Source: Paracyclopina nana
Taxonomy: Eukaryota; Arthropoda; Copepoda; Cyclopoida; Cyclopettidae
NCBI GenBank assembly: GCA_019096065.1
Contig: JAGUCH010000005.1
Span: 2,976,001-3,040,000 of the forward strand
DNA length: 64,000 nucleotides
Direction of reading: 5' to 3'
Each line of letters opens with the position of its first letter. Position 1 is the stretch's first letter. The translations under genes were made by a program, and so were the position numbers. Positions 1 to 44,205 of this stretch are shown here, piece by piece. The notes under the pieces are model-generated. The model did not search any database and was not told where the DNA came from. It saw only the letters and a program-made list of their open reading frames with translations.

Positions 1-42
1 ATTGATGACATAAAAACAATGCCAAAAAATGTGAATTCGACC

Positions 43-6876: not shown

Positions 6877-7226
6877 GAACTATATTTATTTATGTCATAT
6901 TTTATTTTGTCAGCATTTTGGGGTACACTTTTCATTTTTTTGAAAATATTGAGTTAATAGTCAATGTGTTTTGATTTCATCAAATGAACATGAAAAAATG
7001 AGATGAAATTGAAATTTAATTATAAATATGATATGTGATGAGCACTTTTTATTTCTGTCATCATTTCTATCATCATACCATAATTGTTGGACCATTTTTT
7101 AGGGTAGTTTTACTGTGAGTGCATCATAGTTTGATTAATTAATTAAGCTTTCTCTTTCTTAAGACTAAGACATATCTTAAGTGAAAGAAAGTTAGAAAAG
7201 CTAGAAAGATAGTTTACCTATGGTGG
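6877..7226. other. AT-rich spacer between satellite blocks
   Basis: Single-copy-looking AT-rich DNA with no convincing ORF. An imperfect inverted repeat around 7148-7192 (CTTTCTCTTTCTTAAGA against TCTTAAGTGAAAGAAAG) is the only structure I see. Confidence 0.6.
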
Positions 7227-8408: not shown

Positions 8409-9998
8409 TGATTTTCAGTTGCCCACTGAAACAAAAAGTTTGCGACAAAACTGAAACTCTAGTTTTCCATGGAAGCCAGTGCTACAAGGAAACTTTTCTA
8501 CAAACACTTTGAAAAAAGTTACTTCTGGTGCAGTGTGGCAAATTCAGTTTGAAAGCTGGCTGTAGTAGAGAAATGCTAGTGGCGATGCTATTTTCAGTTG
8601 CCCACTGAAACAAAAAGTTTGCGACAAAACTGAAACTCTAGTTTTCCATGGAAGCCAGTGTTGCAAGGAAACTTTTCCACAAACCACTTTGAAAAAAGTT
8701 ACTTCTGGTGCAGTGTGGCAAATTCAGTTTGAAAGCTGGCGGTAATAGCGAAATGCTAGTGGCAATGCGATTTTCAGTTGCCCACTGAAACAAAAAGTTT
8801 GCGACAAAACTGAAACTCTAGTTTTCCATGAAAGCCAGTGCTACAAGGAAACTTTTCCACAAACCAATTTGAAAAAAGTTACTTCTGGTGCAGTGTGGCA
8901 AATTCAGTTTGAAAGCTGGCTGTAGTAGCAAAATGCTAGTGGCGATGCGATTTTCAGTTGCCCACTGAAACAAAAAGTTTGCGACAAAACTGAAACTCTA
9001 GTTTTCTATGGAAGCCAGTGCTACCAGGAAACTTTTCCACAAACCACTTTGGAAAAAGTTACTTCTGGTGCAGTGTGGCAAATTCAGTTTGAAAGCTGGC
9101 TGTAGTAGCGAAATGCTATTGGCGATGTGATTTTCAGTTGCCTACTGAAACAAAAAGTTTGCAACAAAACTGAAACTCTAGTTTTCCATGGAAGCTAGTG
9201 GTAAAAGGAAACTTTTCCACAAACCACTTTGGAAAAAGTTACTTCTTGTGCAGTGTGGCAAATTCAGTTTGAAAGCTGGCTGTAGTAGCGAAATGCTAGT
9301 GGCGATGCGATTTTCAGTTGCCTACTGAAACAAAAAGTTTGCAACAAAACTGAAACTCTAGTTTTCCATGGAAGCTAGTGGTAAAAGGAAACTTTTCCAC
9401 AAACCACTTTGAAAAAGTTACTTCTGGTGCAGTGTGGCAAATTCAGTTTGAAAGCTGGCTGTAGTAGCGAAATGCTAGTGGCGATGTGATTTTCAGTTGC
9501 CTACTGAAACAAAAAGTTTGCGACAAAACTGAAACTCTAGTTTTCCATGGAAGCTAGTGGTAAAAGGCAACTTTTCCACAAACCACTTTGGAAAAAGTTA
9601 CTTCTGGTGCAGTGTGGCAAATTCAGTTTGAAAGCTGGCTGTAGTAGCGAAATGCTAGTGGCGATGTGATTTTCAGTTGCCCACTGAAACAAAAAGTTTG
9701 CGACAAAACTGAAACTCTAGTTTTCCATGGAAGCTAGTGGTAAAAGGCAACTTTTCCACAAACCACTTTGGAAAAAGTTACTTCTGGTGCAGTGTGGCAA
9801 ATTCAGTTTGAAAGCTGGCTGTAGTAGCGAAATGCTAGTGGCGATGTGATTTTCAGTTGCCCACTGAAACAAAAAGTTTGCGACAAAACTGAAACTCTAG
9901 TTTTCCATGGAAGCTAGTGGTAAAAGGAAACTTTTCCACAAACCACTTTGAAAAAAGTTACTTCTGGTGCAGTGTGGCAAATTCAGTTTAAAAGCTGG
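8409..9998 (-). repeat. 180-bp satellite array, inverted block
   Basis: About nine monomers in reverse orientation relative to blocks 1 and 2 (landmark CAGTTGCCCACTGAAA, then AAACTGAAACTCTAG). Type A and B variants are both present. Monomers here are more divergent from one another than in block 1. Confidence 0.96.
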
Positions 9999-10135
9999 CA
10001 TGAAACATTTCAAGTCACACACTGACTATAAAGTTTGTGACAAAACTTTAAGTCTTTTTTTCCATTGAATCTAGTGCTTCTAGGAATTTTTCAAGCATTT
10101 GAAATCAATTACCTTTTCTGTTGAGGCGGCTTTAG
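9999..10135 (-). repeat. Diverged satellite monomer at array edge
   Basis: The sequence can be aligned along its length with a reversed monomer (AAAGTTTGTGACAAAACTT matches AAAGTTTGCGACAAAACTG; GAATCTAGTGCTTC matches GAAGCCAGTGCTAC) but with many substitutions. It looks like an old monomer left at the array border. Confidence 0.75.
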
Positions 10136-11219: not shown

Positions 11220-11223
11220 TGAT
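11220..11223. other. Target-site duplication, left (TGAT)
   Basis: TGAT immediately precedes the left LTR and is repeated immediately after the right LTR at 34688-34691. An extra A could extend it to ATGAT because the LTR itself ends in A. A 4-5 bp duplication is normal for LTR integrases. Confidence 0.85.
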
Positions 11224-12002
11224 TGATGGACAACGAGTTCCATCATAGCCTTTGGTGCAAGGATAGGAAAAGAAAGGAAGAAGAAGATGACTATTCAGCG
11301 CAACAGTATCAACTTGGACCACACAACCTTGCCTTCATTTCATCATGCTTCACAGGTGGCTGGTTGCCTTGCCAAATTCTGCTTCACATGCTACATACTG
11401 CTATATAGTAGCTGTGAATACTATGAAGCTACCTGGACCAGCTGGGCCAGCCTTGAGATGATGAGAGTGCACTGCCAACGAGTGAAGGAGAAAAGGAAAG
11501 AGAAGGGAGTTCTTCAGGGGACCTCAGAGAAACAACATGTCAACCTCACTGCAGGAGGTTGACTGGGGTGAACTCTGCTAGCAGCTGAAGCCTGAAGATC
11601 CTCACCAAGTTTGAAGAGTACAGTACTGAAGAGGCAGCCACAGAGAAGAAGCTTTATTGTTATATACTGTTTTGAGCTCTGGTTGAAGTAGCTGTTGTGA
11701 TGTGTTGTGCCAGCTAATGAATAGAAAATTCCACCCGACCTTAATGAAGTATATTAGTGCTCAGACTCATAGCGAGGTCCTGATCCCTGGAATGATCAGG
11801 GTGAAAGGGCGACACTTAACCACTGGTCAACTGCTCATAAGCGTGCCGAGAGGTTCCTTGCCAGAAGCTGTGTACGTGAGGCTGCGGCCTCTGCATAGCG
11901 GCTTGTGAGACCTGGCAGCTCCGGTGCTGCGGACTGGTACTAGACTTGAACCGATGCTTTGAAACCTTCCTAGGTTCTAGAGGGCGTACCGGTCGCACAC
12001 CA
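11224..12002 (+). repeat. 5' LTR
   Basis: 779 bp, TG...CA ends, apparently identical to 33909-34687 along its whole length. It contains a possible TATA-like TATATAG at about 11402. Small ORFs inside it (such as 11287-11562) recur identically in the other LTR and are not considered genes. Confidence 0.95.
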
Positions 12003-16256: not shown

Positions 16257-16667
16257 TTGCCGTCATTTATGCGGGGAGAATGTAATAAAGAAGTAGGGAG
16301 AGTGTATTTCGATCATCTGAAAGCACTCTCAGTAAAGAAAAAACAATGTGCAAAGAGCCAGAATGAAAGCTCGAGTGCCATTGTTTTGGCCATATCTGGT
16401 GTTCATGACCTAGATAAAGCTAAACAGGAAAAAACCCCAGCCAGGATGTGGAAGGGGTTATTATTATGGATAAGTGCAATGCTAGCTCTTTTGTTATGGC
16501 TGAAAGATAATGAGCTAGTCCCGCATTTGGTTATAGCATACATTATAATAATGGTATGCTTGTGCGTGTGCTGGTTCCACCCAGGCACCACAAATCATAA
16601 AAAACCTGCTCACGTAGCAAGTTTAGATATGCTAGGTGATAAACCTTTAAAAATATGTACCTCCTGA
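16257..16667 (+). CDS. Two-membrane-segment protein between gag and protease
   Basis: A 136-residue ORF. Residues 65-82 and 89-107 are strongly hydrophobic and separated by a short charged turn (LKDNEL), giving a helical hairpin topology. The N-terminal half is polar with basic residues. It sits between the Gag zinc knuckles and the protease, in a different frame from the protease. Ordinary LTR elements do not have a membrane protein here. It could be a real accessory gene or a chance ORF over a damaged gag-pol junction. Confidence 0.4.
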   Translation: MPSFMRGECNKEVGRVYFDHLKALSVKKKQCAKSQNESSSAIVLAISGVHDLDKAKQEKTPARMWKGLLLWISAMLALLLWLKDNELVPHLVIAYIIIMVCLCVCWFHPGTTNHKKPAHVASLDMLGDKPLKICTS

Positions 16668-16725
16668 GGAGACCATAAAAGATAATGATGACACGCTGAG
16701 TGTATTTTCGTTAAAATTACACAAT

Positions 16726-17769
16726 GTGTGTGACAGGTACTATATACCTGTTCAAGTTACTGGCGAAATAAGGCTTCATGCTTTATTCGATAGTGGTGCG
16801 ATGGTTCAAATTATATCTCGCACCCTAGTTAAGTTAATTGAGGAGAAATTAGGTTATGCTTTACCTAGAGTAAAAACTAATTACCTCATCAAAAACTTCA
16901 ATGGGGAAGAATTTCCCAGTACTGAAGGAATTACGTTACAAGTTGCTTTTAATGACCGAGTGCTAATTCGCCAAGCAGTGTTTCTAGTGTCTGACTGTGA
17001 AACATTGCTGATGATTGGCAACTCGTTATTAGTGGATAATAACTTGCGCTTAACTAGTAAGGATGGAAAACACTTTATTGATTTCCCAGGGCGAATAAAA
17101 TATAAAAAGATTCCCCTAGTCCTTACAAAGGAGGCGTTTTATCCAGTAGCTATAAATGAAAGCATTACTGTGCTGCCTGGCATGGAAGTGACAGTAAATG
17201 CTAGTCTTCCTCATGAAATACCTCTTGTGGCTGAGCTTAGCCACGAGGATTTGGACACTGAGGCTGATGATGATGACGTTGGAGTGAAACCAAAATGTAG
17301 AAATGTTTACTCCAGCTTCCATGATAAGTGCTTGGAGTTTAGTCCTGATGAGGATTATGTTAGTACTACTGCTGAGGGATGTGTCACTTCTGTGACCAGA
17401 AAAGGCACATGCCCAGTGCAGATAGGCAATAAATCAGATGAGCCCATATACATTGAGGCTCATTATGTCATAAGGAAGGCTAACATTGTTAAAAAGCAAC
17501 GTTACAGGCCTACCCAAGATGCGTATAAATTAAACCTTAGTTTAAAATCGTTGCGGCATATAATGGATACGTGTTATTGTGACATTGACACGCACATTTT
17601 GGTGCAGTTTGTTGATATAAACGGATTGTCGTTTACTGATATGCATACCTTTAATGAACAAGTTCACATACAAGGTAATATCGAACACAAACTAATCAGA
17701 CAATGGAATTATGTTTTTATTGTTTCCAATCAGTCTGATGGTTATGAAGAAATAACTGACAAACTATGA
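16726..17769 (+). CDS. pro: Retropepsin-like aspartic protease and linker
   Basis: A 347-residue ORF. LFDSGAMVQIIS at residues 20-31 is the retropepsin active-site loop (D22, S23, G24), the place where D-[ST]-G is expected. The frame is open upstream of the first ATG, so the ATG is not necessarily a true start; in retroelements the protease is cut from a polyprotein. Residues after about 130 have no recognised domain. It ends at TGA 17767-17769, but the same frame continues open to about 17946, so this stop looks like an interruption within a longer polyprotein. Confidence 0.75.
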   Translation: MCDRYYIPVQVTGEIRLHALFDSGAMVQIISRTLVKLIEEKLGYALPRVKTNYLIKNFNGEEFPSTEGITLQVAFNDRVLIRQAVFLVSDCETLLMIGNSLLVDNNLRLTSKDGKHFIDFPGRIKYKKIPLVLTKEAFYPVAINESITVLPGMEVTVNASLPHEIPLVAELSHEDLDTEADDDDVGVKPKCRNVYSSFHDKCLEFSPDEDYVSTTAEGCVTSVTRKGTCPVQIGNKSDEPIYIEAHYVIRKANIVKKQRYRPTQDAYKLNLSLKSLRHIMDTCYCDIDTHILVQFVDINGLSFTDMHTFNEQVHIQGNIEHKLIRQWNYVFIVSNQSDGYEEITDKL

Positions 17770-19815: not shown

Positions 19816-19842
19816 ATTCCGGATCAACCTTTTGACCTTGTC

Positions 19843-21063
19843 ATGATTGATCTTGCTTACTTTGATGAAACTTTGGTCAAAGGCAAGGATGCTAAGGTAT
19901 GCTTAGTCATTACCAATGTTTACTCGAAAATGATAATAGCAAAACCATTGTTGAACTCTACTTATAGAGAGGTGGCTAATGCAATGGAAGAGGTTACATC
20001 TTTGTTTGGTGTACCAAAAACCTTACTAGCAGACAATGGAGCGCAACTTACTAGTAATCATGCCCTTCAGCATTTGATTGATAAGTATAAAATACTGGAA
20101 CTGTGCCAATACAGGACACTGTCTCCGAATAAGCATTTGAATGCATATGCTGAAAACAGCGTACGTGTATTGAGAAATGACTTAATACTAAACTCAAAGT
20201 CATATACAAGACCGATGAGTGAGGTATTTAAGTTATCTGTCTATGCAATAAATAACCGTCCACTGACGTATTTATCGTATACTAATGCAAATGGGGTTAA
20301 GATAATACCTACCTCATTCTCTTTACTTTTTGACAAAATGCCAGGTTACCACCTTGGCCATGATGTCTTTGAGATTTTGAGTGAAAGTGAGGACATCATA
20401 CATAAAGCTGAGTGGCAAGATGTCATGAGGAAGTATGATGAGGAAGAACAGCGACAATTGGAACTAATGAAAGCTACTGAAAGGCCTTCTTTTAAGCCTG
20501 AAAGTGACTCGCTAGTTCTTGTCATAAAGCACCCAATAAATGAGCATGGTTACAAGTTCATCCCAGATTTATTTGAGGTGGTTGATGTGGGTTCCCACTC
20601 TACTGTCACAGTTAAACCTTATCTACATGATGAGTTGACTCGTGAAGTAAGCATGGACCATATCAAGTTATATCGTTTTCATGAGCTATATAAGTTCTTA
20701 CCTGAAAAGATAACTTATTTACTCATGCGGCCTTATACTCCTGATGAGACGCTACAACGGCTTGCTAGAAAAGAGATGCTTGAATTCCTAGAGGAAGGCA
20801 AGCCTGAGATAAATGAGTATGCTTTGCGGAACCGAGTTTTGAGAAGCATAGCTGCACGAGATGTAGCGAAAAGCGAATGGGCCTCAAATGCTACTGAGGA
20901 CCCCATTACAGCTACTTCTTCGTTAGGAACTTCTACAGTAAGAAATCACCAAACCTTGTCGCGTTCGGGATCTATCTTACGCAAGAAAGCTACGGATCTG
21001 TTCAAGCCTTCAGATGTGCGTCGCATCCAGGATAAGAACCGTAGAATTGTAAGGCAGCAATAG
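19843..21063 (+). CDS. int: Integrase catalytic core and C-terminal region
   Basis: A 406-residue ORF in the same frame as the zinc domain upstream. The catalytic triad is visible: D3 (MIDLAY), D64 (LADNGA) and E104 (YAENSV). The last two are separated by 39 residues instead of the usual 35. YAINNRPL near residue 135 matches the conserved post-core segment. Residues 200-280 fit an SH3-like C-terminal domain, and the last 100 are charged and basic. The frame is open upstream of the ATG. Integrase inserts the DNA copy into the host chromosome. Confidence 0.8.
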   Translation: MIDLAYFDETLVKGKDAKVCLVITNVYSKMIIAKPLLNSTYREVANAMEEVTSLFGVPKTLLADNGAQLTSNHALQHLIDKYKILELCQYRTLSPNKHLNAYAENSVRVLRNDLILNSKSYTRPMSEVFKLSVYAINNRPLTYLSYTNANGVKIIPTSFSLLFDKMPGYHLGHDVFEILSESEDIIHKAEWQDVMRKYDEEEQRQLELMKATERPSFKPESDSLVLVIKHPINEHGYKFIPDLFEVVDVGSHSTVTVKPYLHDELTREVSMDHIKLYRFHELYKFLPEKITYLLMRPYTPDETLQRLARKEMLEFLEEGKPEINEYALRNRVLRSIAARDVAKSEWASNATEDPITATSSLGTSTVRNHQTLSRSGSILRKKATDLFKPSDVRRIQDKNRRIVRQQ

Positions 21064-27112: not shown

Positions 27113-27787
27113 CTGAGGTGCTACGTAACATGGGGCCCAAATGAGTAGTTGTCTCTCCACCTTAAGAAAAAGGTGTGCTCTATTCAGAGATGGCATTTTT
27201 GGGTTGCCTAATTTACACTACGCACGTAATTTTGTGGGACCCGAATAGGGTCCTATCAAAGCGAAATATGAGCAGCAGCATTGTACAAACTCTCGTTTGA
27301 AGATGCTGCGATGCTCGCGAAAAGGTTATTGCCCTTTCTTACTAGATAATGAGATGTGGTCATAACCTAGAATTCATGGTTATTGCTCTCCATCCATGAA
27401 ACTACATGTGGTTAACCTGTAACTGTTCGTGTGAGGTGGAGCTAAAAAACGCAGCATCTCGCTGAGGTGCTTGAAAAAGTGCGAGCTAACGATGCTGGAT
27501 GAGTCAGCTAAGTGCTGAGTAGCTCAGCTCAAGATCGCGAAATGAATAGCGAGAAAGAGTAGACTAAGAATATGTGGCGCTGGCTTTATTTCCCGTAAGG
27601 GAGGTGGGGCCGGGTGCGACATGGGGATGGCCGGAGGTGCGCCTCGCCACGCCCCCTTTGGAAATTGGACAGTTCTGCAAAAGAAGCAAAGTATGTGTTA
27701 AGTGCTTCGTGCTATGTAGAATTAAACTTACTAAACCACGCCCTCGAGGGGGTCCTCTGTCTCGGGGATCCCGCAGAGGTTGAGGAC

Positions 27788-28279
27788 CTACCGGGTAGCC
27801 TGGGGGAGCTGATCGGGCTCAGCCCAGAACCGGCTAACGAGCCGATACAGCCCCTGGGGCTTGGTCCGGACCACCCAGACCAAGCCCGGGAGCACCAACC
27901 CGTAATAGGTGCCCGCCGCTGCCACGTTTATGGCGATGCCCTAGAGAATCTCTTCGGCCTGGAAAGGTATGAATTGAGTCTTGTGAAGGGGTCTTTGCCA
28001 CTAGAAAAGTACTTACAACGCCATCCCCTTGGCAGGTTTGGCCTTGGAGACCCGCTTGCTGGTGCGCGGGGTACTGGGGCAGCAGGACCGCGGACTCGGC
28101 CGCGGCCTGCCCCCCGTCAACGGCAGTGAGGGCCGGAGCCGCTGTTGTGGCTGCTGCTGCCGCTGATGTTGAAGCTTTTGCCTGAAAATACACAGGAAAA
28201 GCCTGTTAAGAACTGGAATGCACAAGAATTCACAGATTTTTGGTGCACTTACGAAAAGGTCGTCCATAAATGGCGCCAT
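27788..28279 (-). CDS. Spliced antisense gene 1: small C-terminally anchored membrane protein
   Basis: Three exons on the minus strand: 28279-28253, 28181-28017 and 27940-27788. Both donors read GTAAGT. The first acceptor is a pyrimidine-rich TTTTCAG. The second acceptor is TCTCTAG, whose TAG would be an in-frame stop if not removed. All junctions are phase 0 and the product is 114 residues. It starts MAPFMDDLF, continues with an Ala-rich, disordered segment, and ends with a hydrophobic span (AINVAAAGTYYGLVLPGLVW) and a short basic tail. This topology fits a small membrane-anchored protein. No family was recognised. A competing sense-strand ORF (27614-28129) overlaps; I prefer the spliced gene because of its splice signals and the membrane segment. 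Confidence 0.55.
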
Positions 28280-28490
28280 TTTTGTTTTGAGTCGCTACTG
28301 AGCAGCGCTTCCGGACTATGTGATACTCGTTTGTACAGAACTTGTTTGAAAGAGCCGAAATCACATGAGTCTTGTGCTTGAAATGGAAAGTAACGCTGGT
28401 CTTGTGGCTGGTATACTTGGTCGATGCTGCTACCACACTTGGCGGTATCGGACTTTTGTTATGAAAATAAGACTATTAGGGCATTAGTGC

Positions 28491-28505
28491 TTTTATTAGT
28501 TTATT
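28491..28505 (-). terminator. Polyadenylation signals, minus strand
   Basis: Two AATAAA hexamers on the minus strand (28497-28492 and 28505-28500), about 160 bp downstream of the stop of antisense gene 2. A plus-strand AATAAA is at 28527-28532. Confidence 0.5.
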
Positions 28506-28661
28506 GGATCTGTCGAGGCTTATGTAAATAAAATCAATAACATAGTGCTAAAACAGACCGCTAAAGGTGAAGAATTTCCACCCTGAAAGTTGAACTTGAC
28601 GAGTGGGATGACTATGTATAAGACTATTGGGCCCTGCGAGGTCTAATGAAATAGTCTTTGC

Positions 28662-29688
28662 TCATTGATTGGAGGGCTCTGCGATAGTGCTTGGCACTGC
28701 GTTGGCGGCCTCAGTTGGAAGCTCTTGGATTGCTGCTCCAGCAGTCCTAGGGGCGTTCACGTAAAATTGGCTCCGATTCCGGCGCCTCTTGTTTCGTTTA
28801 CGCTGCGAGCTGGGGGCTAGCTCCCCAGGTTCCTGCAATTATGGAAATAGTAAGAATGTGAAGTAAATCAAGTTCTCCTGGACTAAAAGTTAACTGTTGA
28901 TTTCTAACTTCACTAGGATAAAAAGGGCTTACTTGTATCATTGGCCGCAGCACATCGTACACGGGCTCGTGCACAGGTGATACATAGGCTTGACGGGGAA
29001 GGGAAGCCACCTGAAAAGTGGGCACCCCACCCCGCACAACAATCATGCCCTCGAAGTCCGATGGCAAGGGTGGAAGTGATGGCAACGGCCTCCGGGTCAA
29101 TGTCTCATAGATACCTGAGACCGAGGGGCTAGTGAGGGGCAGGGCCAGTGGCTCCAGTTCCTCTGGTTCATCGGTCTTGATCTTTTCCACGCATGCCCGG
29201 CAGAGGCAACAGCTCCTGCACTTCTTGTACAACCGGTGCATGAGGCATGTTATAAGGACGATCAGAATCTGCAAGGAAACAAGCTCAAATTACCGATTGG
29301 TGATTGTGAATAAGTCTTGGGACAGATTACAATGAGCTTCGAAAAAATAGCCTACCAAAATGATAGTGAGGACTGCGGTCAGACCGACCCAGTCTTGTGC
29401 ACTATAAAGAGTGAAGTCAAAGAAGCCACGGGATGAGGCTGGAGTCTCTGGCCCCGAATCCTCTGTTGGCTCCATGGGACGCTGTACTGGTGGCAATGAA
29501 GTCACTGGTGATAGCGTAGTTGAAGTCATGGTAACCTCAGTAGAGGCCACCGTCGAATACGTCGAGGTTCGAGTCCAAGACTCGGGCAGCATCCACCGAG
29601 AAGTGGTGACTGGAGGCCGCTTAGTGGTGCTCATTGTTGCAAGAATAGTAGTTGCTGGTGTTGTAACCGGTAATTGCAAGAATCCCAT
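28662..29688 (-). CDS. Spliced antisense gene 2: mucin-like single-pass membrane protein
   Basis: Three minus-strand exons: 29688-29356, 29268-28933 and 28832-28662 (111, 112 and 56 codons plus stop; 279 residues). Donors are GTAGGC and GTAAGC; acceptors TCCTTGCAG and ATAATTGCAG; every junction is phase 0. The N-terminal 90 residues are Thr, Ser and Pro rich, as in O-glycosylated stalks. A single membrane span is created across the first splice junction (…LTAVLTIIL joined to ILIVLITCLMH…) and is followed by a Cys-rich basic juxtamembrane stretch (KKCRSCCLCRAC). The tail is Pro-rich with tyrosines, and the last exon is strongly basic (RKRNKRRRNR). An in-frame stop just upstream supports the ATG. 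No family was recognised. Confidence 0.65.
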
Positions 29689-29998
29689 ATTTTGTTAGTG
29701 TCGACTGGAAAAAGTTGGCCTATTAAAAAGTCGTGGGATTGATGGACTGCTAAAGACTGAAGTGAAAGCTGAGCCAGGCTTTGCCTTTTATTGGAGAGCT
29801 TGGCCTGTGTCACTTGGCAGAGTCTTGAGCGGTGGAATTTGTCGACTCAGCATCTTGGAGACAAGAGCGACAAATACAGCATGGAGAAATGATTCACCTC
29901 GGCAACAAGAAAATTGCGCACTATAATGATATGAACGTGCGGGAGAAATTATGGTAATAATAATGCTGTGAGGCGCTGTTGGTTACCTGGTTGAGAGC

Positions 29999-30039: not shown

Positions 30040-31650
30040 ATGAACGCTGATTCCAACACCACCCTGCCGTCCCTTGTTAAACTTGGAGAAGCTCTGGCCG
30101 AAAATGAACCTGGCAAGCTCCCCAGGAAGGGAAAAGGCAAGCATAGAAAAGGTGACTTATGCAATGCGCTTAAGCTTGGACCTGACTCTATGGTCATGAT
30201 TCCGCAAATGGATGACCATGATCATGACGCATTGATGATGGATGAGGTGCCTGTTGACAGGGCCTCTCCCACTATGGATCAGGATGCGTACCAAGCCAAT
30301 GCCCAGTACTGGGAAGAAGAAAGTGCTGGGCTGGATCGAATGGCCCCCTTTGTAGAAACCCAAGCTGGGGAAGAAACAAACAAGGTAGATGCCCCACTTC
30401 TGGATAGAACTGGGGAAGGAGCCGCTGATCGGGTTATTCCTGACCAGGTAGACCATGAGGTTGAAATTGCCACCTCAGATCTCGCCCCTAGTAATGGGGG
30501 TGAAGTGGCAAAAATGGATCAGGACGATGGAGAACCAGCCACTCCTCGCAATGGCGAGGCAGTCCGAGCTGGAGGATACGTGGGGAGGCCTCGCATTGTT
30601 GAGCTCCCCTTGAAGGAAGAAGCTGCGAGGTTGCAATACCCAGTGGCTTACCAGGATTTGATCCGCCCGCCCTTTCCGGATACGGTCAAAACTTATGCGC
30701 GCCGTGCAAGTGCAATAAGGGCCGTGACCCAGCGGGGTTATAATGAGGCCATGTTGAAGGTAGCTGCCGACAATCCCCAAACGGCTAATCGTGAGAGGGC
30801 ATTTGACGTCACTATCCGCTGCAATGGAGAGGTTCTGGAGCAACCAGACTTTCGGCGGCCTCTAAAGGTGTGCAACTTTGAGTCATTCGAGTTGATACTT
30901 AAACCCGTATCTGAGGGGGGACCACTGCCAGACTTTATAGTGGTTTTCTTGATGCTGGGAGCCCTTCCAGTATTCAACTTGCCCAAAGTTAAAGATTATG
31001 ATGACAAGTACCACCGAAGGGCCAACATTAGGACTTGGGCTGCGATCCAGAGTCCCTCTGCGCTTAGCTATGCGGTGTACAATGTCCACGGAATGAACGG
31101 TGCTAGGATCCCGGTTGTGGTGTCCAAGCACGTGGCGAAGTATGGGGTAGTCCAGTTAAAACCCACGCTGGATGCTTCTTTTGCTGATACGAGGCTCTTT
31201 TTGGACGTGAGCTTGCCCCATTTCCAATTGCATGTGGGTACTCCATCCTGCTTGATGCACGGGGTCGCCCAAGCTCCTCGGAAGATTGACCTAAAAGTTG
31301 ACATGACTGCCATGTTGCCAATGGACATGGGCAGGTTTGTTGAGCGAGTGGAGCGCGCCAACCCGCAAGCTATGCGGTATATTACTGGTGCCCGCTCTTT
31401 GAGGTTGGCCGTCTCCCAAGACGGACCGCAGAAAAACAGGCGTGGGCCTCGCACTTATTTGGAGGCTGCCACTAACCAGTCTGCGGGGGCTATGTCTATT
31501 AAGCAAGGAGCCCCTAAGGCTAAACGTACCAGGGGTGACAAGGAAAAAGCCCGATTGGGACAGCTAATCGTGGCCAAAATGGAATCGCTATCGTCCAATG
31601 ACCTAAGAACCTTTGGAGCTGCGATAAATGAGTTTGTTGATCAATTTTAA
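30040..31650 (+). CDS. 536-residue protein of unknown family (accessory cassette)
   Basis: A single long ORF, the longest in the window, with no interruptions. Residues 1-40 include a basic run (RKGKGKHRKG). Residues 50-180 are acidic and probably disordered. Residues 200-440 look folded, with alternating hydrophobic segments. Residues 455-500 are basic (KNRRGPR, KAKRTRGDKEKAR), and the end is a predicted helix. An acidic tail, folded core and basic C-terminus suit a nucleic-acid-packaging protein, but I do not recognise a family. It has its own TATA box and a polyadenylation signal 148 bp downstream of the stop. Intactness beside a decayed gag-pol suggests recent selection or recent capture. 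Confidence 0.75.
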   Translation: MNADSNTTLPSLVKLGEALAENEPGKLPRKGKGKHRKGDLCNALKLGPDSMVMIPQMDDHDHDALMMDEVPVDRASPTMDQDAYQANAQYWEEESAGLDRMAPFVETQAGEETNKVDAPLLDRTGEGAADRVIPDQVDHEVEIATSDLAPSNGGEVAKMDQDDGEPATPRNGEAVRAGGYVGRPRIVELPLKEEAARLQYPVAYQDLIRPPFPDTVKTYARRASAIRAVTQRGYNEAMLKVAADNPQTANRERAFDVTIRCNGEVLEQPDFRRPLKVCNFESFELILKPVSEGGPLPDFIVVFLMLGALPVFNLPKVKDYDDKYHRRANIRTWAAIQSPSALSYAVYNVHGMNGARIPVVVSKHVAKYGVVQLKPTLDASFADTRLFLDVSLPHFQLHVGTPSCLMHGVAQAPRKIDLKVDMTAMLPMDMGRFVERVERANPQAMRYITGARSLRLAVSQDGPQKNRRGPRTYLEAATNQSAGAMSIKQGAPKAKRTRGDKEKARLGQLIVAKMESLSSNDLRTFGAAINEFVDQF

Positions 31651-31921: not shown

Positions 31922-33800
31922 ATGCTTATAATATTCATCTTAACTGTGTGCTTGCCGATTGGCAATGGCCGAGTTGAGCCGAAACTTGTGTTAGAAGGGC
32001 CTATATGCCATAAAGGGCATGCTTTGGTCCCTCTACGAACGATTTACCACCCGAAGCCAGACAGAAAAGCCGTAGTGATGGATACGAGCAATTTTTGCCT
32101 GCTTCTTGAAAACACCCTGGACTCTGTTATTAAGCTAGAAAATGGGGTGGAACAATTGAAAGAAAACGTGGCCACTGTAGATGTGCCTTCGGATATAGAG
32201 ACATACCATGACAACCAATATGTAGGTGTGAGTGCTCTACCGACTAATTTGGATGAAAAATGTCAGTCGTTAGGATTTGACTTTAAGGCTTTTGTTCCGG
32301 AAAGCCAAGCTGACATGAACCTAGCTCTAGAACTGTTAACTAAGGCTGCGGACACTAATGCTGCTGCGAAGTTCACTGTTTGTATGAAGTTTAGATTTAT
32401 TGGCAACTCCCCAGTTTCACTTTCGGGTAGTGTGCCTTTTGATAGAATACTTTGGAAAGAGACTGCTAAGGCGTCAATTAAACCAGGCTTTCCTTGTATT
32501 ACTGGAACATTTGCTAACAAAAAGCTTGTAGAAGCTAAGTCTCATGTGTTTGACGGAACTGACCCTGTGGGCACTATCTGTGTGCGCAATAAGTTTGCTG
32601 TTACCCACAAGGTTCAGATTAATAGTACCTTATCTGGAGCTAAAGGTGTTGTATTCTTAAGCTGCCTTGAAGAATCTTGTTGAATCAGGCAGAACACCAA
32701 AGTTCACCGATGGAATGAAGGAAAAGGTCAAAAGATTGACCATTCCGGACAATATAAGTTTGGCAGTACGTTTACTGCAAAAGTTTAGTGATGCTTGTGT
32801 AAGCTTTGGGTTCCTGCCTAAAGATTATAAAGAAGTACTAGACACACTGGGGAAAATAGTCTTATTTGCTAAAAACATTAGGCAAATGGACAAACGCTTC
32901 AGTTTGCACAGAGTAAATGAAGTGAGTGATTTGGAAAGTCAAGCCATGACCAACAGTGTGTATGACCCCTTGGCCAACACTGAGGTTGTGGGCGATAGTG
33001 TGTCATAAGGAATGCTGGGGTTCCATAGCCTGGATCCTGAACCTGAATTGACTTATAGATTAGTGTCAAGAAGTATTGGTGGACAAGTGTTTGCTAACAG
33101 ATTCTTGACAAAGTACAAGGATTTGGGGTATGCCATCAGAGACTTACCCATTTATGGTGACTGTTATGTGCGTGATGCCAATGTAACAGTCTGTGGAAAC
33201 AAGCATTTAGAGGTACAGCCTGAGTCTCGACATTGTGCTAAAATGTTGCTGGGCTCAGCCTTGGGTGACCCATTTGCTGAGTGTGAAATGGTTCCTCTTT
33301 CCTCTAATGTGTTGGAGGAAGTGGCCTGTCCGGAATACCGTGGATTCTTGAATGTCATTCAGGATGTGTCCATTAACAGGACCTGCCTAAATGATTATAA
33401 GAATTCCATTACATTAGTGTCAGGGTCCTATTTGGTACGGAGTCTCTATCTTGTTACCTTGGGCAGTTCCAGTACTGGTTATGAAGACTCTCCGTGGGAA
33501 AGTGACATACTCAAGTTCTTCACAAAGTTTCCTGAGGAAGAGCCTCTGGGTTTGTTTGACACTTGGAAGATCATCCTAATCATAAGCACACTTTCTGGGC
33601 TCATTTTGATCCTCATAGTGTGTATTTTGATCTGGAAACGTCGAGCCTTACTACGCCGATGCTGTAGTGAGCCCGACTATGTCATGCCGGATGCTCATCG
33701 TCGACGAAACGGTGTGGGCCGTAGTGGCACAAGGGAAGAGCCTGCCTCGGTGGGCTTGTTGATTGGAATGAAAGCACTTGGCGCTGCTACGTTAGTATAA
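31922..33800 (+). pseudogene. env: Envelope-like glycoprotein, broken at two points
   Basis: Three consecutive pieces. 31922-32683 starts with a hydrophobic signal peptide ending near residue 17. 32667-33008 is in the next frame. 33012-33800 continues that frame after a single TAA at 33006-33008. The last piece has many cysteines, N-glycosylation sequons, a transmembrane span at residues 186-208 of that piece and a basic, Cys-containing cytoplasmic tail. The overall plan is that of a class I or class III-like viral envelope of about 620 residues. I see no certain family; capture from a negative-strand RNA virus or a baculovirus F-like source are both precedented for LTR elements. The frameshift near 32670 and the stop prevent one continuous product as the sequence stands. 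Confidence 0.65.
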
Positions 33801-33908: not shown

Positions 33909-34687
33909 TGATGGACAACGAGTTCCATCATAGCCTTTGGTGCAAGGATAGGAAAAGAAAGGAAGAAGAAGATGACTATTCAGCGCAACAGTATCAACTT
34001 GGACCACACAACCTTGCCTTCATTTCATCATGCTTCACAGGTGGCTGGTTGCCTTGCCAAATTCTGCTTCACATGCTACATACTGCTATATAGTAGCTGT
34101 GAATACTATGAAGCTACCTGGACCAGCTGGGCCAGCCTTGAGATGATGAGAGTGCACTGCCAACGAGTGAAGGAGAAAAGGAAAGAGAAGGGAGTTCTTC
34201 AGGGGACCTCAGAGAAACAACATGTCAACCTCACTGCAGGAGGTTGACTGGGGTGAACTCTGCTAGCAGCTGAAGCCTGAAGATCCTCACCAAGTTTGAA
34301 GAGTACAGTACTGAAGAGGCAGCCACAGAGAAGAAGCTTTATTGTTATATACTGTTTTGAGCTCTGGTTGAAGTAGCTGTTGTGATGTGTTGTGCCAGCT
34401 AATGAATAGAAAATTCCACCCGACCTTAATGAAGTATATTAGTGCTCAGACTCATAGCGAGGTCCTGATCCCTGGAATGATCAGGGTGAAAGGGCGACAC
34501 TTAACCACTGGTCAACTGCTCATAAGCGTGCCGAGAGGTTCCTTGCCAGAAGCTGTGTACGTGAGGCTGCGGCCTCTGCATAGCGGCTTGTGAGACCTGG
34601 CAGCTCCGGTGCTGCGGACTGGTACTAGACTTGAACCGATGCTTTGAAACCTTCCTAGGTTCTAGAGGGCGTACCGGTCGCACACCA
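33909..34687 (+). repeat. 3' LTR
   Basis: 779 bp, apparently identical to 11224-12002. The reading frames inside it match those of the 5' LTR residue for residue. Identity implies either recent insertion or recent gene conversion between the LTRs. Confidence 0.95.
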
Positions 34688-34691
34688 TGAT
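34688..34691. other. Target-site duplication, right (TGAT)
   Basis: TGAT follows the CA end of the 3' LTR and matches 11220-11223. Confidence 0.85.
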
Positions 34692-36721: not shown

Positions 36722-39700
36722 TTACGTCAAAGCAATGGATTGAGGCTCACTGAAGAAGCCAACACGACCGTGGACGTCTTTGGCTCGCACTGCAAAATGA
36801 TATTTGTTCCCCTTGGAGAACTGAGTTAATGTGCACGCCATTGGGAGAGGCAAAGCCTTCACATCTCCCACCTTTTTCCATAACGCCGACGAAGCTGTCT
36901 GCGCGATCGTTTCCTGATATGCGTATATCTGGTAGGTTCCAACGACGGCATGGAGACTTGGCGAGACTGTCATATTCCATGACAAGACTATGCCTATTAA
37001 AAACGAACAGGTAATTTTAATCATACTTTGACCCTCAAAAGGTCTTACCTGTGTTGAGTCTCGATATTTTCAGGATTGGCTTCGGGGGCATGGCCTTCAT
37101 GTTCATACCTTGAGGCTGTGACCTCGGAGGATCCGGTAAGGGAGCTGGATGTTTTGCGACTCTCATGATTTGAGCGCTCGTGTTTTTTAAATGAGATGTG
37201 GGCACCAATCTCAATCCATTTGTCTTCGGAGGTGCGATAGCTGCTGTACCTTTGTCGTCCTCTTCGTCAGACAGATCAACAATGTCAATAACCTTCTTCG
37301 AGTTGCCTCCCGTTGGAGGCGACTGGACAGCTGATGTTGGCGTTGATGTAATTGATTGCGTCATTTGCGTCGAATTGTGTATTATCGACACTGAAGGGGG
37401 TAGGCCTTGAAGCTGAATGCAAAATAGCAATAGAATACAAATTATGCTTTCGTTAAATTATGGCTTACCCTTGATGTTGTAGTAGTTGCCACCACTACGT
37501 TGACCGGCTTCTGCAATGCTGGTTTCCCATACGTGACGGTAGGTTTGGGGGCAATAGGCTTGGGAGCTGGAATGGGCTTTGCAACTGGAGCAGATGGGTT
37601 CTGTACTGAGGGCCTAGCTTGAGGGGGAATGGCTGCTCCGGTGGTCTTTGTGGCCATTTGCGTGCTTGGTGCAGTGGCTTTGCGTCCTCGGTCAGTGACA
37701 ACCTGCAGTCCAACGGATCGCGTAATTTTGATGGGTGTAACCCTTTCATCGGGCTTGTTTTGCACATCCACTATAAACCTTCTCATAACTGTGTTGAGAT
37801 CTGAGCACATCTTTTGCAAAAGCTGCGTTTTCTTCTTCCATTTTTCAGTGTCCTCTTCCACTCGCTCAAGCTTCCGCCGCAACTCTCCAGCTTCCGATTG
37901 AGCTGACAAAGCATCTGCGAATTTCTGAAGAACAATCTCTTCCAATTCCTGTAAAAGTGAGGAAAGTTTCATTCCAGCTGCACGCAACCTTTCATTGAAT
38001 GGAGCATTTCTATAAAATAGAATTACATCCACAAAATGCTCCAAGTTGATGCTTGTGCCCTCTTTCCTTTTTTTCTCAGATTCTAAAAAATAGTTTACCA
38101 ACTTCAATCATTGAAATCAATAAATACCTTAATAATATTTCTTTGAACAGGTTAATCCATAAGAAAAAGCTGAAGTTACTTTAAATTGTTTCCCCCCACC
38201 AAAATGAAAGTAGAAATTTTATTGATGATTCAATTAGCTTTGGGCTGCAAAAAATCTTGTAAAATGAGTTTGAAAATTCAAACAAAAGTAAATAGGAGGG
38301 CACCACAATGAAAAAAAGGAGCACTCGTTTGTCGATAAAGCTGCGACAGCTTATAATGCTCGTCCCGGCACGCCTCTGTCTTTCAACGCCAACTTAGTAC
38401 AACAGCTTCTAGCCTCGCCTGACTCAACTTTAGCACTAACGTCATCTCCTATGCTATGCACTAATCCGAGTCTGCCAATTTAATTCTCAAAATAGTCCTT
38501 TTTTGGGGAATCTTTTTGCAAAAAAATTCATCAAATCCATGACTTCATAATATCATCCAACATCAATAAGGCTCATGCAAATATCTGCAATTTTCGACAA
38601 AATTCGACGAGTTCAGACAGGTTTAGACAAGCTATTTACTATACATCAAGAAAATAATATATTAGTAGCATATCTGCCAACATTTAAGGAAGTGATGTGA
38701 GGATGAATATCCACCTTTCTAAGCAAAATGCTCAATTTTTTTAGGCATTTGGATGAAAAAAAGAATGAGAACGACCCCAACTGAAAAAGTTAGGGGCGGC
38801 AAGGGTATGAAATGCTATGGCTGCTGATAAAGGGCAGGAGGTAGACGAAGCTTAGTTTGTTCGACTAACCTCTACGCAGTTGCCCTTTCCCTCTCTTACT
38901 TTTTTCGCTAGTACCGTGCAGCTGAATGCTTCTGAGCTAGGGCTAGCCCTAGATCAACGCTTCTACAGCACGACGAGCCAGTACAGCATGCTTAAGTCGA
39001 CATTCACAAAGAGCGACCCTCCTGTTACCATAACGCGAGCAAAGAGACTCAAAAAATTGTTCTGGACTGGTTAATCAATCGAGTCTGATTTACCTGACGC
39101 GAAAATTTCTGAAGGCATTTCTTCACTTCTTGATTGGCGGTCCTTGCATCCTCCACCTTCTCATCCTTATCAAGCTTTGGCTTTTTGCTGTCTTCATGAG
39201 ACTCGGTTGACAGAGTCCTTTTGACTCCGCCTGAAAAATTAAAAAGGAGCATAAAAACGAAATGGCATTTTTCGATGAAAATGATTGCCAATTACTTACT
39301 TGGCACCTTCCTTGAACCATCCTCTTCATTGATTTTTCTGGCATTAGTGGATATCTCAGACAGCTCCTCCAATGCCTTCTTGTAATCAACAACTTGTTCT
39401 TTAGGCTCTTCTTCAATTGCACCCTCCAAGTCAATAGTTGGTGGTCCATCAACAGTTTCTTCATTTTTATCCTCTGGTGACTTATCTTTTGTAGCTTCAG
39501 TAGCAGAATTAGCTGGCTCTTCCTGGGAAGATGGGGCTGTGCTTTTGTCAAGAGACTCTTCATCGGAATCCTCAGAGGAGCTCGGTCCAAGCGGCTCAAG
39601 GCAAATTTCACTCTTTTTTCCGGGGCTCTCACCAGAGTTGGCCAATGGTTCTGTGACCTTGGCATCAGCTTCTTCCTTTTCTGCCTCCTTGCCAGATAAC

Positions 39701-40257
39701 TCAGCTTGAGGCAAAGTGGGCTCAGGTGAAGAAGTATCTTTGTCCACAGGAGTATCTTCTGCTGCAGATTCCACCTCCATTGGAGTGGCATCTTCTTTTG
39801 CCACACCATTTTCTAATGGCTCTTTTTCTTCTGGATCCTTTTTTTCCTTTGAATCCTCTCTTTCCTTCAAATCCTGTGCTTTTGCAACCTCTTCTTCTTT
39901 TAGTTCCTCTTTCTCTACTGGAGCAGATGGATCTTCTACGTCATCTAGCATCTCATCTGCTGGTTGATGATCTGAGTTACCATTTAACTGAGGAGAAGAA
40001 GCCCGCGAGTCTTTGCTTTCATTTTCTAATGGTTTATCTTCAAAACTGGTAGTTTTTGAAGCCTCTTCTTGATCAGGATCTGGGTTAGCAGAGCCATTTT
40101 CTATGGCTTTGAATGAAATTTCGTTATCGGATTCTTCCATAAGTTCACCATTTTTGCCACTTGAGTCCAAGATGGCGTCAGTAGGCTCCTCTAATGAGGC
40201 CTCCCCTAGCGGTGAAGAAGAGGACATCGCCAGCTCCACCGTTTCTATGTTTTTCAT
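36722..40257 (-). CDS. ATF7IP: ATF7IP / windei-like chromatin cofactor
   Basis: Five exons on the minus strand: 40257-39300, 39230-39094, 38082-37469, 37412-37049 and 36993-36722; about 780 residues. The first exon is very acidic (E, D and S rich). The second has a lysine-rich KKPK segment. The third has a coiled coil ([19 protein letters not shown]). The fourth has a SUMO-interaction-like motif ([13 protein letters not shown]). The last encodes a fibronectin type III domain with the family signature ([44 protein letters not shown]). The family stabilises SETDB1 for H3K9 methylation. Introns of 55-69 bp join cleanly, except that the exon 2 donor (GTAAAT) gives phase 0 while exon 3 needs phase 1. 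A weaker GTCAGG donor 5 bp upstream or an unseen exon in 38083-39093 would fix this. Confidence 0.9.
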
Positions 40258-43200
40258 AGCAACTCACTAAAGACGAATGAAAAGCCAGTTAAACTGAGGT
40301 ACTTAGCTGATGAAATTCAGCAATGAGAACAAAGTGAGATTGAGTAAATTCTCAGCTCTTACTGTAAACGATAATTAGAAATACCGATTCACAACTCTCA
40401 TCAGAAAAAGTCGCGAAACTTATGCCACCAGATGGAGCTGACCTCGACTAAACTAACAACACGGAAAGCTAATTTAAATTCGCTCACTTACAGACTACTG
40501 TTATTTTCGTTCTGATTTTATTTTACAAATTTTAATGACATTGGGCTAGATTTCGATTTTGGATTTAAGATGTAAGCTCATGGGCACTTTCTGGAATAGA
40601 CTCTGCCATTTCTCAACAAAACTAATTGCTAAAAAGGTTGTTTATTCAAAGCCAAAATACAAAATGATTGTGAATAAGCAAAAAAATATCATATACTACG
40701 CTAAAACAGAATCAGAAATGTGCTTCACCTCAGCTATGATAAAATTAAGGACTCGCTTCTCAAGTCCTACTGCTTGTTCATAAATCATAAGCTTTAGTTA
40801 AAGGTTTTTATAGGAGTTTAGATTGCCCAAGTGAGAAATACCACATAAACCTAAGAACAGATTTTCAGTTTCTCGGGGATCTGGAAGGTTTTTTCCAACG
40901 TTAAATCAATTTGCCAAAAAAGGCCAATTAAGTTCAACGTATGCAATCATGTTCTGCTTCTATTGCAGCAAATTAGAGCCTTAATGAAACTTCAAATTTA
41001 GCGTTTTTTAAAAAGACACTTATCTCTTCACCATTTAGAAATAGTCTATTTCCACATCAAATTCGCACCATCTGTAAATATGGGATATTTAAACCTTGTA
41101 AAAAAGTGGAAGTTTAGAATTTTAGAAATAATGTGAGAGCTATTGCAGAAATCATGAAGTTTTTATGGTTAATCTTATAAATCACACCTTGCATGGCAAC
41201 ACAAAGAAATGAAGAATAAGTTGCTGGTAGATGGCGCTGTAAAATGCACACACCGGCCAAATGCTCTGCCGTGAACGAGTTTTCTATTGCTACGTGAAAA
41301 CGTTCAATAAAGCTGAGCACGGGGAAGCGGCCGAAATCTAGCGAGCCGCCGAGAGCGGCCAATACAGCCACCACAATGCCGATAGCAAGCTTCTCTGCAC
41401 ACTCTCACGTATGCACTAACGCAAGCTGTCTGGGGCCTTAACATTTTCAACAGTCTATATGTTCTGGATTATCTTGCATTATGACAAGTTGAGACGAGTT
41501 TAGAGCTTCCTTTTAGGGTTGGTTTAAAATTGCAATCGTTTCCAGGTGAATAGGAGCGCGGCGTGGTGAAATCTAATTTTTGACACAGAATGTCTAATAG
41601 TATGCTCTCTATAACAAATGACTATTTTCGTTAACATTACAAATTGAAATTGACATTTTAAGCATTTTATAACATTTTTTCCATTTTAGAGAGCTAAAAT
41701 GAACGTATTTTTCAACAAAAACTTGCATTTTCAACCTATTCCTGAATGTCTAATAGTATGCTTAGCTAAGTAAAAATGGCAGAAATGTTGCAAATAAAAG
41801 CAAATTTGGATTTTTCGCATATTCTACAAAGCTTCAAGGGATGAAATAGGCTAAAATTGAAGATTGCAATAAGCAAACCGGTTAATCCAAACCGGTTAAA
41901 TCATATTTATTTTCAGCCCTTATAATCTTCGTTCTGCTGACAACACAACTAAAGCCTTAAATTACCTAAAAAACGCTTAAACCCATGGACAAATAGCTTC
42001 AAATGTTAGCCTCAAAGTTTATGTACATGTTCATATACTCCTCGTGCTGTATACTGCAGCATAGCTAGAGCAGCTCAAGGATGAAAAGCGTCTACGCGGA
42101 ATGGAGCAACTTTTGCACGTTGTCAATAGATGAAGGAACGCTTCAGTACAATGTTAGCACTACTCACCTAATGTTTCGCTCCAGAACGCTCCAGTTGACC
42201 GGTGTATTAACCCACTTGCTCCAGAGATCTGTTCTTTTCGGGCTCAGAAACCTCTCTGAGTCGTGAGTGCAGCTGCAGAGCGCGCGAAAACGCCGACGCG
42301 GCGCCCGCGACAGCTGTTTCCGACCGAAGCGCCACCTAGCGGCCACTTTGGTTTTCTCGTTATAACTCAGCCAGTTGACAACAAAAAGGTGTCACGACAA
42401 TGTCACGTCCTTCCTTAGCCTCCGTTACACGTTTTTTATTTGTGTCATTACTCTAATTATAGCTTAATTAGGGCGCTGAGGGCATCTGAAAAATTCATGC
42501 AAGTCATTATTACAATGGGTCGTTTTTAAGTCTATTCAATTTCAGCAAGAATTTTCTTGTTTCAATTTAAGAGTTCTTCAAGAAATAGATAGGAAAGGAG
42601 ACCCTTGTCATGTAAGGTGGCGCCGTCATCTACGAGCGATTTTGTGGAGCAAGAAAGGCTGTCGTTACTAGTCGGCCCGACCAGCCTTAACTCGACTGCC
42701 GCTCTCTCTTGCAGCCTAATCTTTTCCGCTCGTTCCTGTAATGTTGTGCCTTGTGCGTTGTGAGCGCTATCAAATTTGCGCTCGCGCCGGATAAGTTAGC
42801 GCGCTCTTTTCTAACCTTGCTCGCTAGATGCTGGCGCAGTGCAGCAAGTTTACATTACGGCTGGCCGGCATTGCTTCACAATTTGGTGTTAACTGGCTCA
42901 CCCAGCTGAAGGAAAATGAACCAACTTCTCTAAATTATTTCTTCGTTGTTCAACCGTTTTCATTCATAATTTGCTCCTTTTTTGTGTGATGTTTAAAGTT
43001 TTACTTTTTAATAACAAAGTGGGGCTTAAATGTGTTAAGGCATGTGATAATAATCACCTCATAAGAATCGACAGTTAAATTGTTGAATCCAACAGAAAGA
43101 TTAAAAAATTGAGAAAAACTATCAAAATATCAAGGCTTGTAAGTTTTTGCAAGTCTTATTAATCAAAGCTAACTCAAAGTACATGTTAGTTTTTGTAGTG

Positions 43201-43492: not shown

Positions 43493-44205
43493 GATAGATA
43501 AGGACTCGCACCTAATGCTAGGAATATGCATTTCTTGTACCAATGGAGCCAATGTTTGTCATAGCTGGTCATATAAAACCTATCCAAAACAGCCCTTGCA
43601 TCAGATATTGTCAAAATTAAATTTAGCCGGTTCCAACAAGGAAAATCTGCATACTGTCAGGAGACAAGACTTGACTTTTGATCATCATCAGATCACAGCT
43701 AGTTCTCGCGCTCAGCTTAACCTGACTTTTAAAACTAGTTTACCGCACTATACTATGCTGATATTCCTTGTTGGAACCGGGCTATTGTTTCTACCTAATT
43801 ACCCAAGTTACTCCTGGTAACCCATATCAGTCCTTATTACCTATGTGAGCGAAGACCATCCCGGATACAGTTCTGAAAACAAAGGTCAGTTTTAAATGCC
43901 CAGATCAGTAACGTTTAACAGCCCTGACCAGACTGTTTGTAGATATCAGTCAGGACAAAAAAGTCAGACCTAGCTATTCAAAATTCCTTTAGCTCCCAAT
44001 GCTTGCACCAGTTAAGCCAGTTGTGTTATTTGTAGGAAGGCAGATTTTCCTTGTTGGAACCGGCTAAATTTAATTTTAATTTTAATCTATATCTGATGCA
44101 AAGGCTGTTTTGGGTAGGTTTTATCTGACCAGCTATGACAAACATTGGCTCAACTGGTACAAGAATTGCATATTCCTAGCATTAGGTACGAGTCCTTATC
44201 TATCT
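43493..44205. repeat. Fold-back inverted repeat
   Basis: The left arm (about 43493-43650) is the reverse complement of the right arm (about 44040-44205) with scattered mismatches: TAGCCGGTTCCAACAAGG on the left matches CCTTGTTGGAACCGGCTA on the right. A third partial copy of the CCTTGTTGGAACCGG core lies in the spacer at 43767-43781. The outer ends are GATAGATAAGG and CCTTATCTATC. I see no clear target duplication. It resembles a fold-back or MITE-type element. ORFs 43515-43820 and 44110-44538 run through the arms and are probably not genes. Confidence 0.75.

Follow-up and report, generated by a model that had tools for sequence, protein, structure and literature searches.

An antisense module of intron-bearing genes for predicted membrane proteins in a giant Ty3-like LTR element

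Retroelements are expected to lose introns through their spliced RNA, whereas the element considered here, with sense genes that form open frames in many of its copies, has retained introns on its antisense strand. Are the two intron-containing genes on its antisense strand genuine protein-coding genes of the element, and how could their introns have been kept?

The element and its sense genes

The window, by which we mean the whole stretch of DNA that was analyzed (64,000 nt; positions 2976001-3040000 of contig C5), stems from a genome of 92 Mb in 10 contigs, whose TTAGG arrays suggest an arthropod. It contains a Ty3-like LTR element of 23.5 kb that spans positions 11224-34687, with the following features in sense orientation:

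11220-11223: 5' target-site duplication TGAT
11224-12002, plus strand: 5' LTR, 779 bp, TG..CA, 100% identical to 33909-34687
16651-17769, plus strand: protease-like ORF with Pfam matches below cut-off, belonging to a pol region that is broken in the window copy
19816-21063, plus strand: ORF with the integrase core (rve, E 1.7e-6, just under the Pfam cut-off)
30040-31650, plus strand: ORFx, a sense gene of 536 aa, divergent from antisense gene A
31922-33800, plus strand: env-like gene, frame-broken in the window copy
33909-34687, plus strand: 3' LTR, identical to the 5' LTR
34688-34691: 3' target-site duplication TGAT

A preliminary description of this DNA had placed two genes antisense within a retroelement, and the identical LTRs, the TGAT duplications and the protease-like, integrase and env-like frames on the plus strand bear this out. 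Because pol and env are broken in the window copy and its LTRs are nevertheless identical, this copy has probably moved recently with the help of other copies. In those, gag-pol forms a single open frame of up to 2,669 codons, integrase included, and the env-like gene is in many cases one open frame of 628-678 codons, shorter in some. The label "env-like" rests on the place of the gene and on a C-terminal hydrophobic span judged by eye; its protein (637 aa) gave no match against Pfam families and solved chains. ORFx has 80 matches in the genome, pieces included, and returned neither a Pfam nor a database match; its single-sequence structure prediction (pLDDT 35) was useless.

In the intact relative L039, the RT matches RVT_1 above the Pfam cut-off and the RNase H families below it, a weak PR match precedes RT/RNase H, and IN follows. 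The best solved matches of its RT/RNase H are 4ol8, which we take to be the Ty3 RT, and Ty3 7q5b. Paired LTRs with a target-site duplication, an RT/RNase H nearest to Ty3 and the order PR-RT-RH-IN assign the element to the Ty3-like group (Metaviridae), by best matches rather than by a tree. BEL/Pao, our first guess from the integrase, was ruled out once RT/RNase H had matched Ty3, and the element is not Penelope-like or a Terminon, which have no LTR-type integrase or structure, since LTRs and an rve integrase are present. Relatives of the element fall into four clades, to which we refer by their approximate integrase identity (88, 67, 49 and 44%). In L034 of the 44% clade, two adjacent sense ORFs follow pol (1293-1925 and 2098-2817; 211 and 240 aa) and look alike by eye.

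Near the element, a ~180-bp satellite forms oppositely oriented arrays in the window (42-6879 and 8410-9999), the arms being 93-98% complementary. An inverted repeat pair of ~165 bp with 90% identity lies at 43493-43650 and 44040-44204, and two probable host genes are found on the minus strand, one for an acidic or coiled-coil protein as judged by eye (37035-40263), the other for NAD(P)H-hydrate dehydratase (56064-56564; Pfam Carb_kinase).

The antisense genes, their copies and the selection on their frames

Gene A (gene 2 of the preliminary description) runs antisense from 29688 to 28662 and has three exons, phase-0 introns and a predicted product of 279 aa; gene B (gene 1 of that description) runs antisense from 28279 to 27788, with a predicted product of 114 aa when the distal of two acceptors is used:

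29356-29688, minus strand: gene A exon 1, a Thr/Ser-rich part and the first half of the membrane helix
28933-29268, minus strand: gene A exon 2, the second helix half, a Cys/Lys stretch and the motifs YETL and YDVL
28662-28832, minus strand: gene A exon 3, the basic cluster RKRNKRRRNR, then the stop
28492-28505, minus strand: two AATAAA after gene A, at 28505 and 28497
28253-28279, minus strand: gene B exon 1, MAPFMDDLF
28017-28181, minus strand: gene B exon 2, Ala/Pro-rich
27941-27958, minus strand: inter-acceptor segment of gene B, 18 nt between the proximal (ccag) and the distal (tctag) acceptor, reading AEEIL and then TAG (27943-27941)
27788-27940, minus strand: gene B exon 3, membrane span and tail, to an early stop at 27790-27788; the family version continues to 27732
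27675-27731, minus strand: gene B intron 3, which splits the family stop codon (TA/G unspliced, TA/A spliced)
27585-27590, minus strand: AATAAA after gene B

The four junctions that had been named beforehand proved exact, all of them in phase 0: 29356/29268 (gtaggc..ttgcag) and 28933/28832 (gtaagc..ttgcag) in gene A, 28253/28181 (gtaagt..ttttcag) and 28017/27940 (gtaagt..tctag) in gene B. Three exons had been given to each gene, a count that stands for gene A; gene B has intron 3 (27731-27675) in addition. One membrane span is predicted for each product, as had been claimed. That of gene A is strong (Kyte-Doolittle 3.04, 19-window) and bridges intron 1, and the gene A tail carries Cys clusters and YxxL motifs. 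The statement that this helix is made only after splicing was too strong: intron 1 indeed splits it, but with the intron retained a weaker span-like stretch remains (1.81 vs 3.04). The gene B span is borderline, with values of 1.62 in the window and 1.57 in L026 in the same 19-window, the usual threshold being 1.6.

Promoter-like signals accompany several of the genes:

29755-29793, minus strand: core-promoter-like pair before gene A, AATAAAAG at 29792 and TCAGT at 29760, 32 nt apart
29999 and 30031, plus strand: promoter-like pair before ORFx, TATAAAA and CAGT, respectively
31859 and 31892, plus strand: promoter-like pair before the env-like gene, TATAAAA and CAGT, respectively

A scan of both strands of the element for TATA/initiator pairs gave five matches at four places, with 1.08 matches expected in block shuffles, and three of these places directly precede gene A, ORFx and the env-like gene, which may have an internal promoter of its own. 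ORFx and gene A start 351 bp apart on opposite strands. Outside the element (~40 kb), the scan returned three matches. The fourth place within it is an antisense pair at 21811/21779 (minus strand) with no gene recognized behind it. Among the subfamily copies scored, 12 of 13 have the gene A pair (L003 is without the TATA) and 8 of 12 a gene B pair, which the window lacks. Five copies of the 67% clade were scored for gene B and yielded no pair, and the gene A pair misfits the spacing in the three scored there. The pattern missed the start, and thereby left the copy unscored, in L005 and L022 (gene A), in L002, L003 and L021 (gene B), and in L028 and L030 of the 67% clade (gene A).

The preliminary description would have been overturned had these frames not been conserved in other copies of the element. 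A stretch of 701 bp of the cassette matches seven places in the genome, the window and six others at 72-97%, and gene A is intact in all seven, with exons of 333-381, 336 and 171 nt in the alignment and introns of 83-91 and 98-113 nt. Eight further copies (exon 2 at ~55% amino-acid identity) share the same plan and are intact in six cases, L020 and L025 having frameshifts in exon 1. Adding the five intact copies (5/5) of the 67% clade and three (3/3) from the 49% clade brings the total to 21 intact among 23 copies read over their full length; for gene A, the refuting condition thus did not arise. The 44% clade is represented by L034-L036, counted only for the split helix: in these three copies both exons around the helix are open, and a gene A start was not found. 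The partial copy L037 lies outside the 23. The helix of gene A is interrupted by an intron in every one of the four clades, so that equivalents with a helix-splitting intron occupy the same place at ~67, 49 and 44% integrase identity. Exon lengths stay multiples of three across the copies, apart from the two frameshifted ones, while intron lengths drift (59-113 nt overall in gene A). Homology of gene A between clades rests on place, strand, exon plan and weak profile matches: tblastn links the 88 and 67% clades weakly, and the profile of gene A matches the 67% clade at E 2.7e-5 (probability 75%, 132 columns including the helix; weak) and the 49% clade at E 6.8e-5 (probability 63%, 54 columns including the helix; weak).

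Genome-wide, exon 2 of gene A has close to 90 matches over the four clades. It is uninterrupted and antisense to the LTRs in 15 of 15 LTR-paired subfamily elements; the LTR pairs were matched by eye (spacing 23-37 kb), and their number is a lower bound. A single-copy insertion is thereby ruled out. The 67, 49 and 44% clades contribute at least 59, 7 and 8 matches, respectively. Stops occur in a single match, which belongs to the 44% clade, and at least three of the 59 are fragments of copies that have been split.

Gene B was found in 23 of the 27 stretches searched, those without it being L031-L033 and L037; none was found in the 49% clade. The preliminary description had called both genes intact, which holds for gene A. 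Gene B of the window ends at 27790-27788, 19 codons ahead of the family end, an identical stop is present in L002, and L003 is truncated, with no start codon and little of exon 3 left; the damage thus concerns the window copy and its two nearest relatives, and gene B is open to the family stop in the other 17 of 20 copies.

The substitution patterns argue for selection on the antisense frames. In gene A, dN/dS was 0.17-0.36 in 11 of 12 pairs (L020 and L025, still counted as broken, were left out); the close pair L001/L002 gave 0.69 on 27 changes. The changes between L001 and L004 fall on the three codon positions as 41/32/94, over 278 codons. When all six frames of exon 2 were compared in four pairs, the antisense gene frame contained no stop and gave dN/dS values of 0.11-0.21. 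The other five frames held 5-11 stops, summed over both sequences of a pair; four of them yielded 0.70-3.17, and one sense frame 0.23-0.49 but with 5-6 stops. For gene B, dN/dS amounted to 0.12-0.37 for exon 3 (seven pairs) and 0.12-0.46 for exons 1 and 2 (six pairs); the comparison of the window with L026 gave 0.50 and 0.48, respectively. The open sense frame over gene B exon 3 gave 1.11-1.93 in five pairs.

These values bear on the exceedingly improbable alternative that the antisense frames stay open as a side effect of constraint acting on a sense gene or on a structured sense RNA. A sense frame of 176 codons does overlie gene B in the window, which would fit such a by-product, but in seven of the nine copies checked no open sense frame covers gene B (the longest have 78-105 of 137 codons), the sense frame over exon 3 evolves at a dN/dS above 1, and the sense frames of gene A exon 2 contain stops. 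We reject this reading, which the six-frame comparison largely refutes. As judged from the aligned copies, our analysis shows that genes A and B are selected as antisense protein-coding frames, that their splice sites are conserved, and that their introns have been kept through many transpositions. The previously proposed escape of antisense introns from removal agrees with this, as the sense genes are single open frames in many copies and every copy read for gene A or gene B has antisense introns.

Intron-bearing genes with promoter signals of their own resemble host genes, and their capture from the host in reverse orientation, without any role for the element, therefore deserves mention. 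We regard it as very unlikely. Fifteen of the 16 places found in the subfamily search with gene A exon 2 lie within LTR-paired elements and the sixteenth adjoins element fragments, no host paralogue appeared at the sensitivity of the exon 2 search, and equivalents at 44% integrase identity imply a long residence under selection. Such retention speaks against the absence of a role; an old capture as such would be compatible with the data.

L004 and L018 are close to each other in gene B (dS 0.11 and 0.16) and far apart in gene A (dS 0.97), a sign of recombination between element lineages within the cassette.

Gene B and its in-frame TAG

Directly before exon 3, all 23 gene B copies carry an in-frame TAG. 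In the 88 and 67% clades (20 of 20 copies), an intron ending in CAG is followed by GCC GAA GAG ATY CTC TAG and then by exon 3, with one synonymous change in this segment among the 20 copies; the equivalent segment of the 44% clade has 12 nt and reads GGC TYT GAT TAG (3/3). At the other acceptors of genes A and B, the base before the AG varies between C and T. Because it is nonetheless T in all 23 copies before gene B exon 3, the TAG itself seems to be kept. It is followed by G in every one of the 23 copies.

According to the preliminary description, splicing removes a stop in gene 1. Use of the distal acceptor would do so, and it is one of two possible ways past the conserved TAG. A choice between alternative 3' splice sites may well operate here, even if we would stop short of calling it probable: the proximal acceptor would yield a short protein that ends in AEEIL and the stop, and the distal one, whose AG is that of the TAG, the long membrane protein. 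This amounts to the model proposed earlier plus a second product. Two in-frame acceptors recur in distant clades, 18 nt apart (20/20) or 12 nt apart (3/3), and pyrimidines directly precede the distal AG. However, the proximal acceptor (exon from 27958), which keeps the TAG, is the better one by eye and comes first, and the segment between the acceptors is preserved like coding sequence, with 17 of 18 positions identical between L018 and L026; the remainder of the intron agrees at 39 of 56 positions, exon 3 at 160 of 200.

A UAG between gag and pol is read through in some retroviruses. It is possible, and we propose it tentatively, that the gene B TAG is likewise read through by the ribosome after splicing at the proximal acceptor, with a downstream hairpin perhaps helping. 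Besides the invariant TAG, the G next to it and the C/T variation at other acceptors, the extent of the open frame speaks for readthrough: among the 79 genome matches of exon 3, the open frame (taken as stop to stop) is exactly exon-length in 74, comprising 67-69 codons in 68 matches and 77 codons in six of the seven of the 44% clade. On the other hand, an acceptor of the TAG type would likewise leave a TAG immediately ahead of a phase-0 exon.

The candidate hairpin is a single structure:

27857-27887, minus strand: 13-bp hairpin, 53 nt downstream of the TAG on the antisense RNA

Among 54 folding windows scanned through the cassette of the window copy, that of the hairpin folds most strongly (z -4.0), and two hairpin pairs are changed on both sides. 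Across seven sequences, 85.7% of cells are paired; this percentage was reached by 0 of 500 shuffles and the covariation score by 5 of 500. The double-changed pairs, however, were reached by 133 of the 500 shuffles, and the further pair types by 488. These counts refer to 7 of 14 copies, L006, L018, L022 and L024 being omitted as near-duplicates and L034-L036 as lacking the hairpin. The distance of 53 nt also weighs against a role in readthrough, as do the failure to find the hairpin in the 44% clade, where the folds differ, the range of its z values over 14 copies (-1.7 to -4.6), the stronger folding of other windows in L026, and a fold of the sense strand at the same place (z -5.7). When 14 copies were folded jointly around the TAG, the result was poor. 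We take the hairpin evidence as suggestive only. Be it by acceptor choice or by readthrough of the UAG, gene B probably makes two products around the TAG, of which the short one would lack the membrane span and the long one contain it.

A proposed module and its relation to known systems

Collectively, we consider it highly probable that genes A and B constitute an old accessory module of a giant Ty3-like LTR family with an env-like gene, i.e., two antisense Pol II genes with spliceosomal introns that encode small single-span membrane proteins. Gene A would be transcribed from its TATA/initiator pair, and both genes would end at their poly(A) signals. Antisense transcripts would be made from the integrated DNA and spliced by the host, translated, and their products inserted into membranes to exert their role. 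The sense genomic RNA would be reverse transcribed with the antisense introns intact, because it does not contain them as introns. The arrangement should have its cost, since the antisense mRNA is complementary to the genomic RNA. The products probably act as accessory membrane proteins, and our guess, drawn by analogy, is that they serve trafficking, egress, the control of superinfection or the countering of host defence.

Beyond this, we lean towards a wider view, in which a lineage of giant Ty3-like endogenous retroviruses in an arthropod runs its accessory genes in the manner of a DNA virus: with separate internal promoters (a divergent sense/antisense pair and another before the env-like gene), with a spliced two-gene antisense module for membrane proteins whose introns predate the split of clades at 44% integrase identity, and with one gene that uses an in-frame UAG for two products. 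Genes A and B add predicted membrane-protein accessory genes to Ty3-like elements, and four clades with ~90 exon 2 matches in one genome make intron age, loss rate and selection measurable.

The preliminary description knew of no LTR element with such a cassette. In the literature, mostly outside subscription journals, we likewise found no description of multi-intron antisense genes for membrane proteins in an LTR retrotransposon; antisense genes and antisense introns as such are already known from LTR elements, so that it is their combination with multi-intron membrane-protein genes that we did not find described. In the protein collection searched, we found no homologues of gene A or gene B. 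Gene B had no homologue in viral contigs either, a collection in which ORFx was also unmatched and which may consequently hold few such sequences.

The closest parallels are spliced antisense transcripts of proviruses. HBZ of HTLV-1 and APH-2/3/4 of HTLV-2/3/4 are, in the sections of PMC10186651 available to us, spliced antisense genes of LTR-bearing proviruses, as genes A and B are proposed to be; here the predicted splice sites and the exon frames are conserved across 23 copies, of which two have a frameshift in exon 1. In the same sections, the HTLV antisense genes start in the 3' LTR and HBZ and APH-2 are nuclear, whereas a TATA/initiator pair, as read from the sequence only, directly precedes gene A at a distance of ~4 kb from the 3' LTR, and both products are predicted membrane proteins. 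Unlike the HTLV genes, genes A and B have at least two introns each and reside in a Ty3-like element. Two gene A proteins and one gene B protein gave no Pfam match above cut-off, hence neither the bZIP domain of HBZ nor TRP28; this comparison was by Pfam and not directly with HBZ/APH sequences. ASP of HIV-1 resembles genes A and B in being an antisense, membrane-associated retroviral protein, but overlaps env in the account excerpted from that source (PMC10186651), whereas genes A and B, which contain introns, are located in a separate region between pol and ORFx.

The plant elements Retand, Grande and RIRE2 possess a long region from pol to the 3' LTR with conserved antisense ORFs, according to the accessible text of PMC11963269, and the antisense ORF of Grande is transcribed from its own promoter, as the title of a paper in its reference list states. 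They share with our element an antisense gene between pol and the 3' LTR that is kept across a lineage. In that text the plant ORFs mostly carry TRP28 or other DNA-related domains, none of which was found by Pfam in genes A and B, and its main text never uses the term "intron". A mussel LTR retrotransposon offers an animal case with antisense mRNA, as proposed for genes A and B (PMC10974842); that paper concerns an IRES, and its main text uses "intron" 0 times and, in the portion at hand, names no membrane product. The giant elements Ogre and Burro exceed 20 kb and have extra coding capacity, as does the present element, and no antisense intron-bearing genes are described for them in the accessible portion of PMC6431247. 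For insect errantiviruses, the terms "accessory" and "additional ORF" occur 0 times in the available text of PMC12992720. Errantiviruses are characterized by an Env-F type protein from spliced sense RNA; the env-like protein here matches no Pfam family or solved chain.

Engineered retroviral vectors, finally, carry a reversed gene with its own promoter that is able to hold introns, by design and in this respect unlike our element; in such antisense-cassette vectors, dsRNA from convergent transcription lowers the titre (both from the available part of PMC13148933). The element should meet this dsRNA problem as well. Genes A and B would thus provide a natural counterpart of the reversed intron-bearing gene of vector designers, and with it the same dsRNA question of genomic RNA versus antisense mRNA.
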